From Streptomyces akebiae (GTDB lineage Bacteria; Actinomycetota; Actinomycetes; Streptomycetales; Streptomycetaceae), in contig NZ_CP080647.1 of NCBI RefSeq assembly GCF_019599145.1, forward strand, positions 8,680,001 to 8,744,000: a stretch of DNA of 64,000 nt, in the 5' to 3' direction. Both the position numbers and the translations under genes were made by a program. How positions within the stretch are numbered: the first letter of the stretch is position 1; every line of letters begins with the position of its first letter. Shown one piece after another: positions 16,467 to 20,550 of the stretch. The notes under the pieces were generated by a model. The model made no database searches and was not told the origin of the DNA. It worked only from the letters and a program-made list of their open reading frames with translations.

Positions 16467-16638
16467 GTGAGTGAAAGTGAACGCCCTTCGGCGACCGAGC
16501 CCAGGTTCCGTGTCCGTGCCCGCCACACGGCCGACACGGTCACCGTCTACCAGGCGTACCGCCCGGAGATAGGCGGCCCGGCCGCGCGGCACGGCCGTTT
16601 CCCGGCCGCGTGGAAGCGGGACCGGATGACCTGGGTCA
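16467..16638 (+). pseudogene. DUF4291 gene, N-terminal fragment (interrupted)
   Basis: Begins at GTG 16467 and encodes the DUF4291 N-terminus: HTADTVTVYQAYRPEIG, then RFPAAWKRDRMTW. It breaks at base 16638, exactly where the first inverted-repeat segment begins. Joining 16467-16638 to 20017-20462 gives 618 bases, an uninterrupted frame of 205 codons plus stop, with the junction reading MTWVKPSFLWMM, as in the intact paralogue at 18424-19017. The split is therefore an insertion into a once functional gene. DUF4291 has no known activity. Confidence 0.88.
16630..16638. repeat. Left copy of 9-bp target duplication
   Basis: CCTGGGTCA directly precedes the left terminal repeat of segment A. The counterpart after segment C is CCTGGATCA (20008-20016), one base different. 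It also equals the spacer between segments A and B (18342-18350). Confidence 0.65.
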
Positions 16639-16657
16639 TCAAGCCGCGTTCACAGCC

Positions 16658-16960
16658 TCCAGGGGCGCGCCGGGACGGGGCAAGCCGAGTGACCCGTTCG
16701 AGCGCGGTCCAGCGTCGAAGAACGAACCATCGCCGTCCCACCCCCGGGAAGCAGGTGCGCTCGGCCGTGCCGCTGATGCCGCCACCAGCCGTCAGGCCCG
16801 ATCACGGTCGCCCCGGCCCGTGGCCGACGGCTCGGCGGGCATGGCAGACGGGAGGCATTCACCTCACTGGGACACTTGGGTGATGAGGTGCGAGGAGTTC
16901 GCCGCGCTCGGCACTCACCACCCCCGCAGGAGATAATGAGGGTTCGCCGCGGTAGGTGAG
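16658..16960. other. Non-coding leader of cassette A
   Basis: No convincing gene in about 300 bases. It holds a short inverted pair CACCTCA (16860-16866) and TGAGGTG (16884-16890), with TGAGGTG again just before the start codon of the downstream gene, possibly regulatory. Confidence 0.35.
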
Positions 16961-18247
16961 GTGATGGCGGTGCCTCCATGGCATCTGCGCGACTATCACG
17001 ATGACGATCTTGACCAGGCCATCGAGATCTGGGACCAGAGCCGTCAGGCCGACGAGGACCGGGTGTTTCCTGTCTCCGAGGTGATGGCCGCGGCCAAGGC
17101 AGGACAGACGGCGGTGGTCGCGGTGGTCGGCGATGAACTGGTGGGCATGGCCGTGGCGCAGGCCTACGGCCAGCGGGGGTGGATCCTCCTGGTGGCACTC
17201 GCCTCCCGCTGGCGTGAGCGCGGGATCGGCAGTGCTCTCCTCGCCGAGCTCGAACGGCGCCTGCGGGCCGTGGGCGTGCGCCACATCAGCGCGCTGCTGC
17301 CCGCCCACGCCGCCGGCACGAAGGCTCTGGAGCACTCCGGCTACCAGTCCCGCGACGGCCTGACCTACTACGAGAAGCTCGAACCACCCGGAGCCCCCAA
17401 CGCTGATGTCCTCGCGTCACTGGGCGGCCGGATGCTGCTCGGGGAACTGTGGGACGCCATGGCCGGCATGGAGCGGGAGAAACAGGTCGTCGAGCGCCGG
17501 GTCGTGCTCCCACTGACGGAGCCTGGGCTGGCCGACCGTTACGGGGTCGTCCCTCCGAAGGCAATCATCCTGTTCGGCCCTCCCGGCACCGGGAAGACCA
17601 GCTTTGCCAAGGCGGTCGCCTCCCGGCTCGGCTGGCCGTTCGTGGAGCTCTTCCCCTCCCGGCTCGCGGCCGACACGAGCGAGGGGCTGGCTACGGCGCT
17701 GCGGGAGGCCTTCGCGGACCTGGCGGAACTCGACTCGGTGCTGCTCTTCATCGACGAGGTCGAAGAGATCGCCGGCGTGCGGTCCGGGAAAGCGGTCGAT
17801 CCGGGACATGGGGTGACCAACGAGTTGCTCAAACTGATCCCTGTCTTCCGTGAACACGACGCACGGCTGCTGGCCTGTGCCACCAACTCCGTGCGCTCGC
17901 TGGACCCGGCCTTCTTGCGGCCGGGCCGGTTCGACTACGTCATTCCCATCGGCCCACCCGACCCGACCGCCCGCGCGGCGATCTGGGCCCGCTATCTCAG
18001 GGCCGCCGGTGACTCGGTGGACCTCATGCAACTGGTCGAGGCCAGCGAGTTGTTCACCCCGGCCGACATCGAATTCGCAGCCCGCAAGGGCGCGCAGGCG
18101 GCGTTCGAGCGCGAGGTCGCACAGCGAGAGGGCCGACCGGCCACCACCGATGACTTCATGACCGCCATCGCCGACACCCGGCCGACGCTCACCGCACTGG
18201 CGATCAAGGAGTTCACCGAGGACATCGAGAAGTACAGTCGCCTCTGA
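16961..18247 (+). CDS. GNAT acetyltransferase fused to AAA+ ATPase
   Basis: 428 residues from GTG 16961 (ATG 16964 equally likely). Residues ~8-140 form a GNAT domain (LRDYHDDDLDQAIEIWDQS, ILLVALASRWRERGIGSALL with the acetyl-CoA loop R-x-R-G-I-G, and ALEHSGYQ). Residues ~190-420 form a classical AAA+ domain: Walker A GPPGTGKTS, Walker B LLFIDEVEE, sensor region CATNSVRSLD, arginine finger in RPGRFDY, and a C-terminal helical lid. AAA+ proteins of this SpoVK/FtsH-like class remodel proteins. Fusion to an N-terminal acetyltransferase is uncommon and could couple modification with unfolding. It is the sole gene of cassette A. The target is unknown. Confidence 0.82.
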   Translation: MMAVPPWHLRDYHDDDLDQAIEIWDQSRQADEDRVFPVSEVMAAAKAGQTAVVAVVGDELVGMAVAQAYGQRGWILLVALASRWRERGIGSALLAELERRLRAVGVRHISALLPAHAAGTKALEHSGYQSRDGLTYYEKLEPPGAPNADVLASLGGRMLLGELWDAMAGMEREKQVVERRVVLPLTEPGLADRYGVVPPKAIILFGPPGTGKTSFAKAVASRLGWPFVELFPSRLAADTSEGLATALREAFADLAELDSVLLFIDEVEEIAGVRSGKAVDPGHGVTNELLKLIPVFREHDARLLACATNSVRSLDPAFLRPGRFDYVIPIGPPDPTARAAIWARYLRAAGDSVDLMQLVEASELFTPADIEFAARKGAQAAFEREVAQREGRPATTDDFMTAIADTRPTLTALAIKEFTEDIEKYSRL

Positions 18248-18321
18248 GACCGGTGCCGGCGCTCAGTGCGGGTCTCCGGTCCGCGCAAGTGAGGCGACCG
18301 ATGCCTCCGTGCACGTGACAA

Positions 18322-18370
18322 GGTCTGTGGACACGGCTTGACCTGGATCATCAAGCAGCGTTCACAGACC
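18322..18370. repeat. A/B junction: facing inverted repeats around a 9-bp spacer
   Basis: Right end of A (GGTCTGTGGACACGGCTTGA, 18322-18341), spacer CCTGGATCA (18342-18350), then left end of B (TCAAGCAGCGTTCACAGACC, 18351-18370). The arms are imperfectly complementary and could form a hairpin with a 9-base loop. Confidence 0.8.
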
Positions 18371-19170
18371 CTCGCCGCCATGTGACCCGTGGGTGATGCC
18401 GGCGGCTGTGCCCGGAGTGCCGGTCAGGGACGCAGGTGGGCCAGGAGTTCTGCACTGGCGGGGTACTCCTGTTCCTGGGGGAGCAGTCGGGCAGCTGAGT
18501 CCAGTTCGCCGTCCCTGACGAGTGCGTGGATCTCGTGGGCGAGCGGGGTGACGTCGCTGATGGACACGATCCACTCGTCGGCGTAACGCGACGACGCCTC
18601 ACCCGAGAGCCCCAGTTGCAGCGAGCGGTACGGCAGGGGATGCAGGTGCAGATCGCGTTCGGGATCCCACTGGACACGGGACGGTGCGCGCTTGAGGTCA
18701 CGCTGCCAGGTGTCGCGATCGGGATGCAGTCCGCGGACGTAATGCGACAGGCAGGCATGGCGCAGCGCCCAGTCGAAGCCCTCGCGAGTGATCTCGAAGG
18801 CCAGGACGGTCTCCTGACCTTCCTTCATGCCCCAGCCGGAGCGGTACATCATCCACATGAAACTGGGTTTGATCCACGTCATGCGGTCAGGCTTCCACGC
18901 GGCGGGAAAGCGGCCGTCGCGGATGGTGGGCAGTCCGATTTCAGGGGAGTACGCCTGGTAGACGGTGATCGTCGATGCCGTGTGAAGCGCGCGGATCCTG
19001 CGGTGCGGTTCTTCCATGGCGTACAGCGTGGAGTCGGCCTGGTCAGCAGGCCAGCGATTTTCGACCGCCGCTCGTTGCGACGGTGCACGTCGGACGCAGC
19101 ATCGTGCGGGTTGTCGGGGGCTGTGCAGAGGAGTCGGTGACAGGCGAAAGGGTCTGTGAACGAGGCTTGA
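18351..19170 (-). mobile_element. Cassette B: inverted-repeat-bounded segment carrying an intact DUF4291 gene
   Basis: 820 bases. Left end TCAAGCAGCGTTCACAGACC (18351-18370), right end GGTCTGTGAACGAGGCTTGA (19151-19170). Its only gene, on the minus strand, belongs to the same family as the gene the array disrupts. There is no transposase. Confidence 0.65.
18424..19017 (-). CDS. DUF4291 family protein (intact copy)
   Basis: 197 residues, ATG 19017. It has the complete family pattern: HTASTITVYQAYSPEIG at the N-terminus, RFPAAWKPDRMTWIKPSFMW, then GQETVLAFEITREGFDWAL, RVQWDPERDL, PLPYRSLQLGLSG and RYADEWI. It is clearly paralogous to the disrupted copy at 16467/20017 and by eye mostly identical over the C-terminal 150 residues. 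No strong ribosome site precedes the ATG, so expression may be weak or leaderless. Biochemical function is unknown. It sits alone inside cassette B, which is itself inserted in the other DUF4291 gene. Confidence 0.82.
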   Translation of the reverse strand: MEEPHRRIRALHTASTITVYQAYSPEIGLPTIRDGRFPAAWKPDRMTWIKPSFMWMMYRSGWGMKEGQETVLAFEITREGFDWALRHACLSHYVRGLHPDRDTWQRDLKRAPSRVQWDPERDLHLHPLPYRSLQLGLSGEASSRYADEWIVSISDVTPLAHEIHALVRDGELDSAARLLPQEQEYPASAELLAHLRP

Positions 19171-19199
19171 CAGAGTCATCGAACAGCGTTGACAGACTC
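19151..19199. repeat. B/C junction: facing inverted repeats around an 8-bp spacer
   Basis: Right end of B (19151-19170), spacer CAGAGTCA (19171-19178), then left end of C, TCGAACAGCGTTGACAGACT (19179-19198). This junction is more diverged than the A/B junction, suggesting an older insertion or relaxed selection. Confidence 0.7.
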
Positions 19200-19237
19200 A
19201 TGCGCGTCGGTCGGGGAAGGGGGAGCCGCCGTGCCTC

Positions 19238-19834
19238 TCAGAGGCCGGCTGGGTGGCTGGAGAGCCAGTTTGTGTGTTGGTCACGCACACGGTCGCGCTC
19301 CGCAGGCGTGGCGAGGATGACGTCTGCGCCGCCGTCGTAGGGATGGTGGATGCATCGAAGGTCCGTGTCGGTGAGGAAGACTTCGGCGAGCGCATCGTCC
19401 GCGACTGCTCGCAACAGCTCATCGACGCAGCCGCGTTCCCACGGGCGTCGGTCGATGTACAGACGTGTGTGGGTGTGGAAATCCGGGTCGGGGTCGTCCT
19501 GTTTCGACTCGGTCCACCAGCGGATGCCGTCGGGGTGCAGCATCTGTCGTGGCGTCGGGTAGCCTGCGGGCCCGGTCGGTGTGTTCGACCAATCCATGGT
19601 CACCACGAACACGTCCGTGTCGGCGAACAACTCGTCGAGGATCGTGTTGTACCGGTCCAGCACGATCGCGTACTCGTCCTCGGACTCCGGGTAGCGCTTC
19701 GAGCCGGGAAGGCTGTGGAAACGCACCCAGCGATCCGCATACCTAGTGCGAAACGTGTGAGCGACGGGAGGGCCCGACGGATGCCGTTCCCTCCACAAAG
19801 CCGCTAGAAGATCAGGGTCGATGGCGAAACTCAC
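19238..19834 (-). CDS. DUF3885-like protein
   Basis: 198 residues from GTG 19834. The block ADRWVRFHSLPGSKRYPESE followed by EYAIVLDRYNTILDELF, then VFVVTMDWS, is typical of DUF3885 domain proteins as I recall them; further on come IRWWTESKQDDPDPDFHTH and CIHHPYDGGADVILAT. No signal peptide or membrane segment. Function unknown; the family is scattered among bacteria, often in small accessory loci. A GGGG-containing site overlaps the start, so the initiation codon is not certain. It is the cargo of cassette C. Confidence 0.68.
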   Translation of the reverse strand: MSFAIDPDLLAALWRERHPSGPPVAHTFRTRYADRWVRFHSLPGSKRYPESEDEYAIVLDRYNTILDELFADTDVFVVTMDWSNTPTGPAGYPTPRQMLHPDGIRWWTESKQDDPDPDFHTHTRLYIDRRPWERGCVDELLRAVADDALAEVFLTDTDLRCIHHPYDGGADVILATPAERDRVRDQHTNWLSSHPAGL

Positions 19835-19864
19835 CCCTTGGCCAGAGCCACACCGATCGGACAG

Positions 19865-19960
19865 GAAACGCGGGTCCCGGCGTGGCCGTTGTGTTGCGGT
19901 CAAGATACTGCTGGTGGTATCCGTCGGCCGTGCAGAGCGTACAGCCCTCCAAAGAAGGCA
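19865..19960 (-). pseudogene. Fragment resembling the C-terminus of MsrA
   Basis: The minus frame reads GCTLCTADGYHQQYLDRNTT. YHQQYLxxN is the signature near the end of peptide methionine sulfoxide reductase A. Nothing else of MsrA is present, so this is a scrap captured at the right end of cassette C, upstream of the DUF3885-like gene. Short match by eye. Confidence 0.42.
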
Positions 19961-20007
19961 GGAAGCCACCCCGATCACGGTGGATGCGGTCTGTGAACAC
20001 GGCTTGA

Positions 20008-20462
20008 CCTGGATCAAGCCGTCCTTCCTGTGGATGATGTACCGCTGCGGCTGGGGCCTGAAGGAGGGCCAGGAGACGGTCCTGGCCGTGGAGATCACCC
20101 GCGAGGGCTTCGAGTGGGCGCTGCGCAACTCCTGTCTCTCGCACTACGTTCCCGAGCTGCACGAGAGCCGGGCCGCCTGGCAGCGGGAGGTACGCCGGTC
20201 GCCCGCCCGCGTCCAGTGGGACCCCGAGCGGGACCTGAGGCTCAACCCGCTGCCGTACCGCTCGCTGCAGCTGGGCCTGTCGGGTGCGGCGGCGGCACGG
20301 TACGCGGACGAGTGGATCTGCGGCATCGAGGACGTGACGCCGCTCGCGCGGGAAGTCCACGGCCTCGTACGGGCACGGGAGCTGGACGCGGCCACCGCGC
20401 TGCTCCCCGAGGAGCGGCCGTACCCGGTCGCGGACGACGTCCTGCTCCATCTGCGGCGCTGA
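20008..20462 (+). pseudogene. DUF4291 gene, C-terminal fragment
   Basis: Resumes directly after the right end of cassette C, beginning with the 9-bp target copy CCTGGATCA and reading WIKPSFLWMMYRCGWGLKEG, then GQETVLAVEITREGFEWAL through RYADEWICGIEDVTP to the stop at 20462. No start codon of its own at a sensible place. It continues the fragment at 16467-16638 in frame once the 3378-base insertion is removed. Confidence 0.88.
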
Positions 20463-20477
20463 GCCCGCAGCGGGCGC

Positions 20478-20550
20478 GCGCCGGGGTGGGGAGAGCCGAA
20501 ACGATGCGCCGGGGTGGGGAGAGCCGAAGCGAGGCGCGCGCCGGGGTGGG
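20478..20550. repeat. 28-bp direct repeats
   Basis: Two near-identical 28-base units (20478-20505 and 20506-20533, beginning GCGCCGGGGTGGGGAGAGCC) followed by a partial third copy, in the gap between the DUF4291 fragment and the convergent serine hydrolase gene. Confidence 0.65.

Follow-up and report, generated by a model that had tools for sequence, protein, structure and literature searches.

A probable site-specific cassette array in a split DUF4291 gene of Streptomyces akebiae

How did three short gene-bearing segments come to lie side by side inside a DUF4291 gene of Streptomyces akebiae? The locus is found in a stretch of 64,000 nucleotides, here called the window (contig NZ_CP080647.1, positions 8,680,001 to 8,744,000 of the forward strand, assembly GCF_019599145.1), and coordinates given without a locus or contig name are those of the window. 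In an earlier note on the same letters, the segments were taken for non-autonomous cargo elements that had inserted with a 9-bp target duplication. The array is read here, with a probability of about 0.75, as a site-specific cassette array built by a large serine integrase, and it is one case of a wider streptomycete family. Loci from other genomes are referred to by L numbers.

Target site and crossover zone

The proposed attB, TGACNTGGATCA, lies where the chromosomal DUF4291 gene is most conserved, at the invariant-residue block RMTWIKPSF. The insertion into a DUF4291 gene was supported, as the split halves rejoin in frame. Removal of 16639-20016, which had been expected to restore both the frame and the exact motif, resulted in 205 codons but in the sequence MTWVKPSF; MTWIKPSF was obtained by excising 16634-20011, with the exchange placed at the TGs. 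DUF4291 was split at the identical codon in L037, L038, L044, L045, L048, L049, L053 and other loci, and near that codon in L036, the left end of which is lost. In L218 no DUF4291 match was obtained and the likeness is by eye only. DUF4291 is present in 328 of the 394 genomes of the host's family. All 30 intact genes that were read (29 host genes and the cassette gene of L042, listed as L177) have TGACNTGG followed by A, with G in one case.

The spacers of the window are CCTGGGTCA (16630-16638), CCTGGATCA (18342-18350), the decayed CAGAGTCAT (19171-19179) and again CCTGGATCA (20008-20016). The core repeats of attL and attR were compared in 13 pairs selected by a regular expression and differed in eight, the pair of the window included; in L213 and L223, which fall outside the expression, the repeats differ too by eye. 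The base after TGG was A at all 36 right ends beside DUF4291, where it belongs to a host codon, whereas G (10) and A (6) were found at the 16 left ends. At internal junctions, A, G and C occurred 24, 20 and 1 times, respectively. The base before TG (N) was host-like at attL (G 12, C 2, A 2, compared with G 18, C 8, A 4 in intact genes), A in 27 of 45 internal junctions, and mixed at attR (G 17, A 15, C 4). The copies of one recurrent cassette, family B, converge from TGG on, the preceding base being variable. These base patterns at attL, attR and internal junctions bracket the exchange to the N/TGG position with a central TG, as in serine-integrase recombination, and argue against an exact duplication. 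The claimed 9-bp target duplication therefore did not hold, since the two flanking 9-mers of the window differ as do most of the other pairs. The asymmetric repeats, together with the bias after TGG, are the pattern expected after site-specific recombination between attB and an unlike attP.

Cassette edges were compared in pairs of segments; in the 67 segments, the TG was located at 45 of the left ends and at 60 of the right ends. For members of one family with different neighbours, the identity was 0.89 inside and 0.25-0.27 outside the left edge (18 pairs), and 0.80 inside and 0.34-0.42 outside the right edge (12 pairs). As these pairs were required to have an identity of at least 0.55 inside, the contrast describes the sharpness of the edge and not the inside value. 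The identity of different-family pairs was 0.27-0.33 on both sides. The elevated outside values on the right may result from many units ending at one target gene.

Distribution of the ends and integrases at the site

In the genome of S. akebiae, five places matched the end pattern with 0-1 mismatch, all of them inside the array. With up to three mismatches, 46 matches were obtained against 62 for a reversed control pattern, so weaker matches are uninformative. With a half-site matrix, nine matches of at least 11 bits were detected in 1.67 million shuffled positions, and the six half-sites of the window scored 17.2-35.3; the seeds included these half-sites and the nulls were base shuffles. The right-end pattern with up to three mismatches was found in 21 of the 394 family genomes, a few weak or chance-like matches included. 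A search for the exact end pattern in one genome per species (84,980 species) resulted in 57 stretches. Streptomyces or Actinacidiphila accounted for 47 of them (39 genomes), all with a half-site of at least 15 bits; none of the remaining ten, from unrelated bacteria, had such a half-site. The ends are thus not the product of a local rearrangement, and the expectation of matching ends elsewhere was borne out across genomes. No viral contig contained the exact end pattern, and the array DNA had no match among phage records. The integrase was matched in 648 phage records, always below 60% (about 29% in the ten listed); a phage origin was rejected on these grounds.

Complete large serine integrases were detected at the DUF4291 insertion point of L038, L085 and L211, starting about 30 bp inside attL, and integrase remnants were present at the site in L037, L094 and L036. 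The integrases of L038 and L211 contain the Resolvase, Recombinase and Zn-ribbon domains (PF00239, PF07508, PF13408). L211 (Streptomyces sp. AC558_RSS880) is a 13.6-kb actinomycete integrative and conjugative element (AICE) with integrase, RepSA (4e-139) and FtsK/SpoIIIE (4e-26), and L085 and L086 also match its integrase, RepSA and Tra. When the ends of L038 are joined, as in a presumed circle, a palindrome with a central TG is formed. In a sequence comparison at 1e-3, the L038 integrase had no match among chains of solved structure, from which no inference was drawn.

The five integrases of the DUF4291 site formed one clade (100/100) against 21 relatives, in a tree with long branches for L074, L075, L082, L083 and L192. 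L086 is counted among the five only because some 25 bp look by eye like a DUF4291 stub; its att site is degraded and no DUF4291 match lies beside its integrase. DUF4291 was absent from up to 1.5 kb on either side in all 21 other integrase rows. The nine related integrases whose surroundings were read adjoin other genes, e.g. ABC permease, Lon and YqeY-like, named by reading and not by family search. Around integrases at nine other genes, a search for repeated arms, for which some start positions were approximate, gave a few 22-mers with 4-5 mismatches and nothing array-like. Integrase relatives were observed close to their insertion points in other genes in L087-L093, L095 and L096, and in L087, L088 and L092 the same ABC-transporter permease gene is concerned in different genomes. 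The best plasmid-borne relatives had identities of 52%, with 90% of the protein covered, and 62%, with 60% covered.

Of 196 arm contexts, 64 were left arms with a spacing of 9 nt and 6 were left arms with a spacing of 6 nt. A further 105 were right arms in reverse reading, and 21, among them the decayed junction of the window, fell into no class. Cassette left arms carry three extra bases compared with those of integrase-bearing elements, while the right-hand half-sites of both are alike.

Layout and repertoire of the cassettes

The features of the array are listed in Table 1. The ends, segment sizes and spacers described earlier were confirmed by re-reading of the window sequence. Each segment has one main gene, and the three cassette proteins are not transposases according to their profile matches; none of seven L211 proteins (integrase, RepSA, Tra and four others) was detected in the three cassettes at 1e-4.

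Table 1. Coordinates of the split DUF4291 gene, att sites, junctions, cassettes and cargo genes in the window
Feature	Position	Strand	Remarks
5' part of split DUF4291 gene (attB left side)	16467..16633	+	in-frame join with 20012-20462 gives 205 codons
attL	16629..16658	+	host side, TG (16632-16633), element right half-site
Cassette 1, TG to TG	16634..18345	+	family common to L044 only, among segments cut
GNAT acetyltransferase and AAA ATPase fusion, 428 aa, in cassette 1	16961..18247	+	PF00004 1.7e-24, PF00583 2.2e-10
Internal junction 1, attP-like	18320..18372	+	two facing half-sites, TG at 18344-18345
Cassette 2	18346..19174	+	family B, in 8 loci; right edge approximate owing to the decay of junction 2
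Complete DUF4291 gene, 197 aa, cargo of cassette 2	18424..19017	-	PF14124 3.3e-73; own clade in tree
Internal junction 2, decayed	19149..19201	+	GA in place of TG, one base short
Cassette 3, DUF3885 type	19175..20011	+	left edge approximate
DUF3885 gene, about 198 aa, in cassette 3	19238..19834	-	PF13021 1.5e-50; start set at the GTG opening VSFAIDP, after 198-aa open reading frames of other cassettes
attR	19986..20016	+	element left half-site, TG (20010-20011), host side
3' part of split DUF4291 gene	20012..20462	+	

The array that breaks the DUF4291 gene itself carries another, intact DUF4291 gene. In the DUF4291 tree, where L177 stands for the cassette gene of L042, the cassette copies formed one clade (100/95) and the split host genes were scattered over the tree. 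The structure model of the cassette protein had a mean predicted local distance difference test score (pLDDT) of 91. It matched the C-terminal toxin domain of RhsP2 with an E-value of 2e-4, 14% identity and a template modelling (TM) score of 0.52 by model length, and the match with the ADP-ribosylating toxin ParT was far weaker (E 0.14). RhsP2 is an ADP-ribosyltransferase, and the model suggests that DUF4291 may have an ADP-ribosyltransferase-like fold. A further DUF4291 gene of nearly full length (profile positions 1-180, no stop) was observed in the genome of the window at C1:7502577-7503083.

For the comparison of cassettes, 67 segments were cut from 30 of 33 loci; L035-L038, L085, L086, L094 and L211 were excluded as AICE-type or incomplete. 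The 57 segments with both arms (ten had no left arm) had a median length of 1434 bp and a range of 470-4401 bp, and the mean G+C content of all 67 was 0.66. None of the 67 matched any of the seven L211 proteins at 1e-4. The segments fall into about 36 families, 28 of them with a single member, a rough number, as family A is a single-linkage cluster mixing DUF3885 cassettes with composites. The cassette families recur in different orders across arrays, and the DUF4291 cassette of family B was present at 8 loci, where its neighbours were of several kinds. The largest array described here, about 23 kb with eight internal junctions, belongs to S. rhizosphaerihabitans (L204 and L205). Four internal junctions each were found, by our own count, in SID12501 (L206), S. 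olivochromogenes DSM 40451 (L207) and S. albiflavescens (L209). The earlier proposal that non-autonomous cargo units form a family and stack at a single target was supported.

Among 30 chosen cargo proteins, a Pfam family was assigned to 13 and none to 17, and no recombinase was found. The families include F420-dependent oxidoreductase, M48 peptidase, Imm32, arginase, APH kinase, metallo-hydrolase, DNA methylase and SpoIIE phosphatases. Reversed spacers were observed at some junctions of L204, L205, L040 and L042 (e.g. CGATCCATG between facing arms), and L040 contains an inverted DUF3885 cassette; by these signs, parts of arrays have flipped. At 15654-16900 of L208, a second DUF4291-like 5' part is followed by another cassette, an insertion close to the first array that is either nested or a repeat.

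Mechanism, alternatives and related systems

The sequences themselves show the target, the ends and the crossover zone, the recurrence and reassortment of the cassettes, and an integrase at this site in relatives; from these we infer the circles, the action in trans, the stacking reaction and the enzyme that acts on the cassettes, as follows. An AICE lineage would encode an integrase for the DUF4291 attB and insert there with near-palindromic ends, and short integrase-less cassettes with related ends would share that attB. A cassette circle carrying attP would recombine at the central TG either with attB or with an existing attL. In the latter case (attP x attL), the new unit would be placed beside the old one, leaving an attP-type junction between them. 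The integrase would be supplied in trans by an AICE and possibly lost later, and the integrase-less passengers would stack like elements of the staphylococcal cassette chromosome (SCC) or like cis-mobilizable elements (CIMEs), at integron scale. The recombinase activity on DUF4291-site sequences is putative.

Several results weigh against a cassette array built by the integrase of the site. The repeats are identical in 5 of the 13 pairs, and junction 2 of the window lacks the TG. Among same-family pairs, the agreement of N was no more than 0.28 at left ends and 0.25 at right ends; the low agreement at right ends is unfavourable, because a crossover at TG should keep N with the cassette there. 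A spacing of 6 nt was followed by an integrase in 6 of 6 left arms and a spacing of 9 nt in 0 of 64. Since the 9-nt left ends never precede an integrase, the known integrases may not move cassettes: either the AICE integrase accepts both spacings or a sister enzyme remains unseen. Among the 39 genomes with such ends, an integrase of at least 75% identity was found in two and one of 62% in a third. No related integrase was detected in the genome of the window, and the three other large serine recombinases of this host are unrelated to the site integrase (at best 25% over 115 aa), so that the window array is an orphan. To our knowledge, characterised serine integrases usually do not perform attP x attL alone.

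The cassettes may instead be passive remnants of the CIME type, i.e. AICE-like stubs that integrated, were stacked by accretion and lost their core genes, no single cassette moving today. CIMEs and tandem accretion are known, according to passages of PMC5704250 and PMC9513070; most array genomes have no close integrase, and one junction of the window is decayed. Beside its attR, the decayed AICE L036 contains DNA that has 74-76% identity to six array segments, and no junction was found within it. This is the sole clue to the way in which a cassette may originate. However, the absence of the seven AICE proteins from all 67 segments, the occurrence of the same families in different orders with edges at TG, and the cassette left ends, which constitute a separate class, speak against passive remnants. 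This explanation is considered possible, with the odds somewhat against it.

The separation of the two kinds by spacing among the classed left ends, and the lack of a recombinase in the cargo proteins searched, are consistent with a sister integrase, so far unseen, that would be adapted to a spacing of 9 nt and would move the cassettes in place of the AICE integrases found. In contrast, the right half-sites, the target and the crossover zone are common to both kinds, and no integrase with an adjoining 9-nt left arm was seen at the loci, the integrase searches having started from the L038 protein. A sister enzyme is considered possible, with the odds likewise somewhat against it.

Homologous recombination of the whole locus as the main route of spread between species is improbable. 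The window and L044 share three cassettes, and in steps of 250 bases the arrays were 0.96-1.00 identical and the flanks 0.73-0.93; the two arrays are probably one event. However, the identity drops at the right att site (0.98, 0.82 and 0.73 in succession), the steps leaving the left edge unplaced, and other loci share single cassettes and not blocks. A family of DDE transposons or miniature inverted-repeat transposable elements (MITEs) that end in inverted repeats and duplicate 9 bp of the target would suit the inverted ends of about 20 bp, the 9-base repeats and the five identical pairs. It was rejected as practically untenable, because the other eight pairs differ in a directed way, a single target is used in many host lineages, and no transposase was seen while a serine integrase lies at the target site.

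A cassette array made by a serine integrase has partial counterparts among known systems. The textbook case of genes being collected one cassette at a time is the integron, which relies on a tyrosine integrase; such arrays often lack an integrase, as in clusters of attC sites lacking integron-integrases (CALINs). The arrays of short, functionally varied cassettes resemble both, but the integrase is of the serine type and the half-sites are attP-like and face each other. No match to the integron integrase (TIGR02249) above cut-off was obtained in the genome of the window, in agreement with the earlier note, and an integron was rejected on this basis. SCC elements and those of the Enterococcus cassette chromosome (ECC) are much larger than the array units. 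They are alike in that large serine recombinases act at a single target gene, the cargo varies and the att sites have inverted repeats, according to passages of PMC6222049, where tandem ECC are stated not to have been observed directly. These elements carry their own ccrAB, whereas the array units, with a median of 1.4 kb, had no recombinase found. Instead of the rlmH target and the ccrAB pair of SCC, DUF4291 is the target and a single integrase lies at attL, as judged without a ccr family search.

AICEs with serine integrases are represented by L211 with its integrase, RepSA and FtsK-type protein, genes that the array cassettes lack. A serine recombinase is used by 19 of 144 AICEs in PMC3218068, in passages of which DUF4291 is not named as a target. 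Dehalococcoides islands at ssrA also have a CcrB-like serine recombinase beside attL and occur in tandem, and 15 islands without an integration module were named possible CIMEs (passages of PMC3146451). Their target and cargo are different and their units are larger (vcr islands with integration modules of 9-11 kb), and short cassettes in arrays, joined by half-sites that face each other, are not what is described there. Like CIMEs as defined in a passage of PMC5704250, the units keep att ends and have no integration or transfer genes, but no AICE relics were found in the segments and the cassettes reassort in many orders; for a derivation by deletion from an integrative and conjugative element, L036 is the one link. 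PAISt of Streptomyces turgidiscabies has been described as a mobile gene collector capturing at att sites (passages of PMC4057263); it differs in that its recombinase is of the tyrosine type, its modules measure 105 and 569 kb and its target is bacA. No description of DUF4291 arrays, and nothing on DUF4291 by name, alone or with integrase, was found in a literature search covering titles and abstract starts, with few subscription journals and no preprints.

Tentatively, an integron-like capture by a serine integrase might operate in Streptomyces: single-gene cassettes would circulate, a modified attP with the right half shifted by three bases would keep attL open, and arrays would grow at one conserved gene, one cassette bringing an intact copy of the broken gene family. 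If so, the cassette-array architecture arose more than once, here in antibiotic-producing soil bacteria, DUF4291 would be a chromosomal docking gene for accessory genes, and a natural attP that stacks would be available. Small orphan cassettes would also be linked to a conjugative element, a connection that ordinary att plasmids can test.

Two minor observations concern the window itself. Part of it was matched by 46 plasmid records, none covering more than 37% of the window, and a plasmid origin was rejected. The best matches lie in the region of the GNAT-AAA fusion gene (16961-18247), relatives of which with 73-74% DNA identity are carried by large actinomycete plasmids. Immediately downstream of the split gene, at 20473-20550, a short G+C-rich tandem repeat (GCGCCGGGGTGGGGAGAGCCGAA) was observed.

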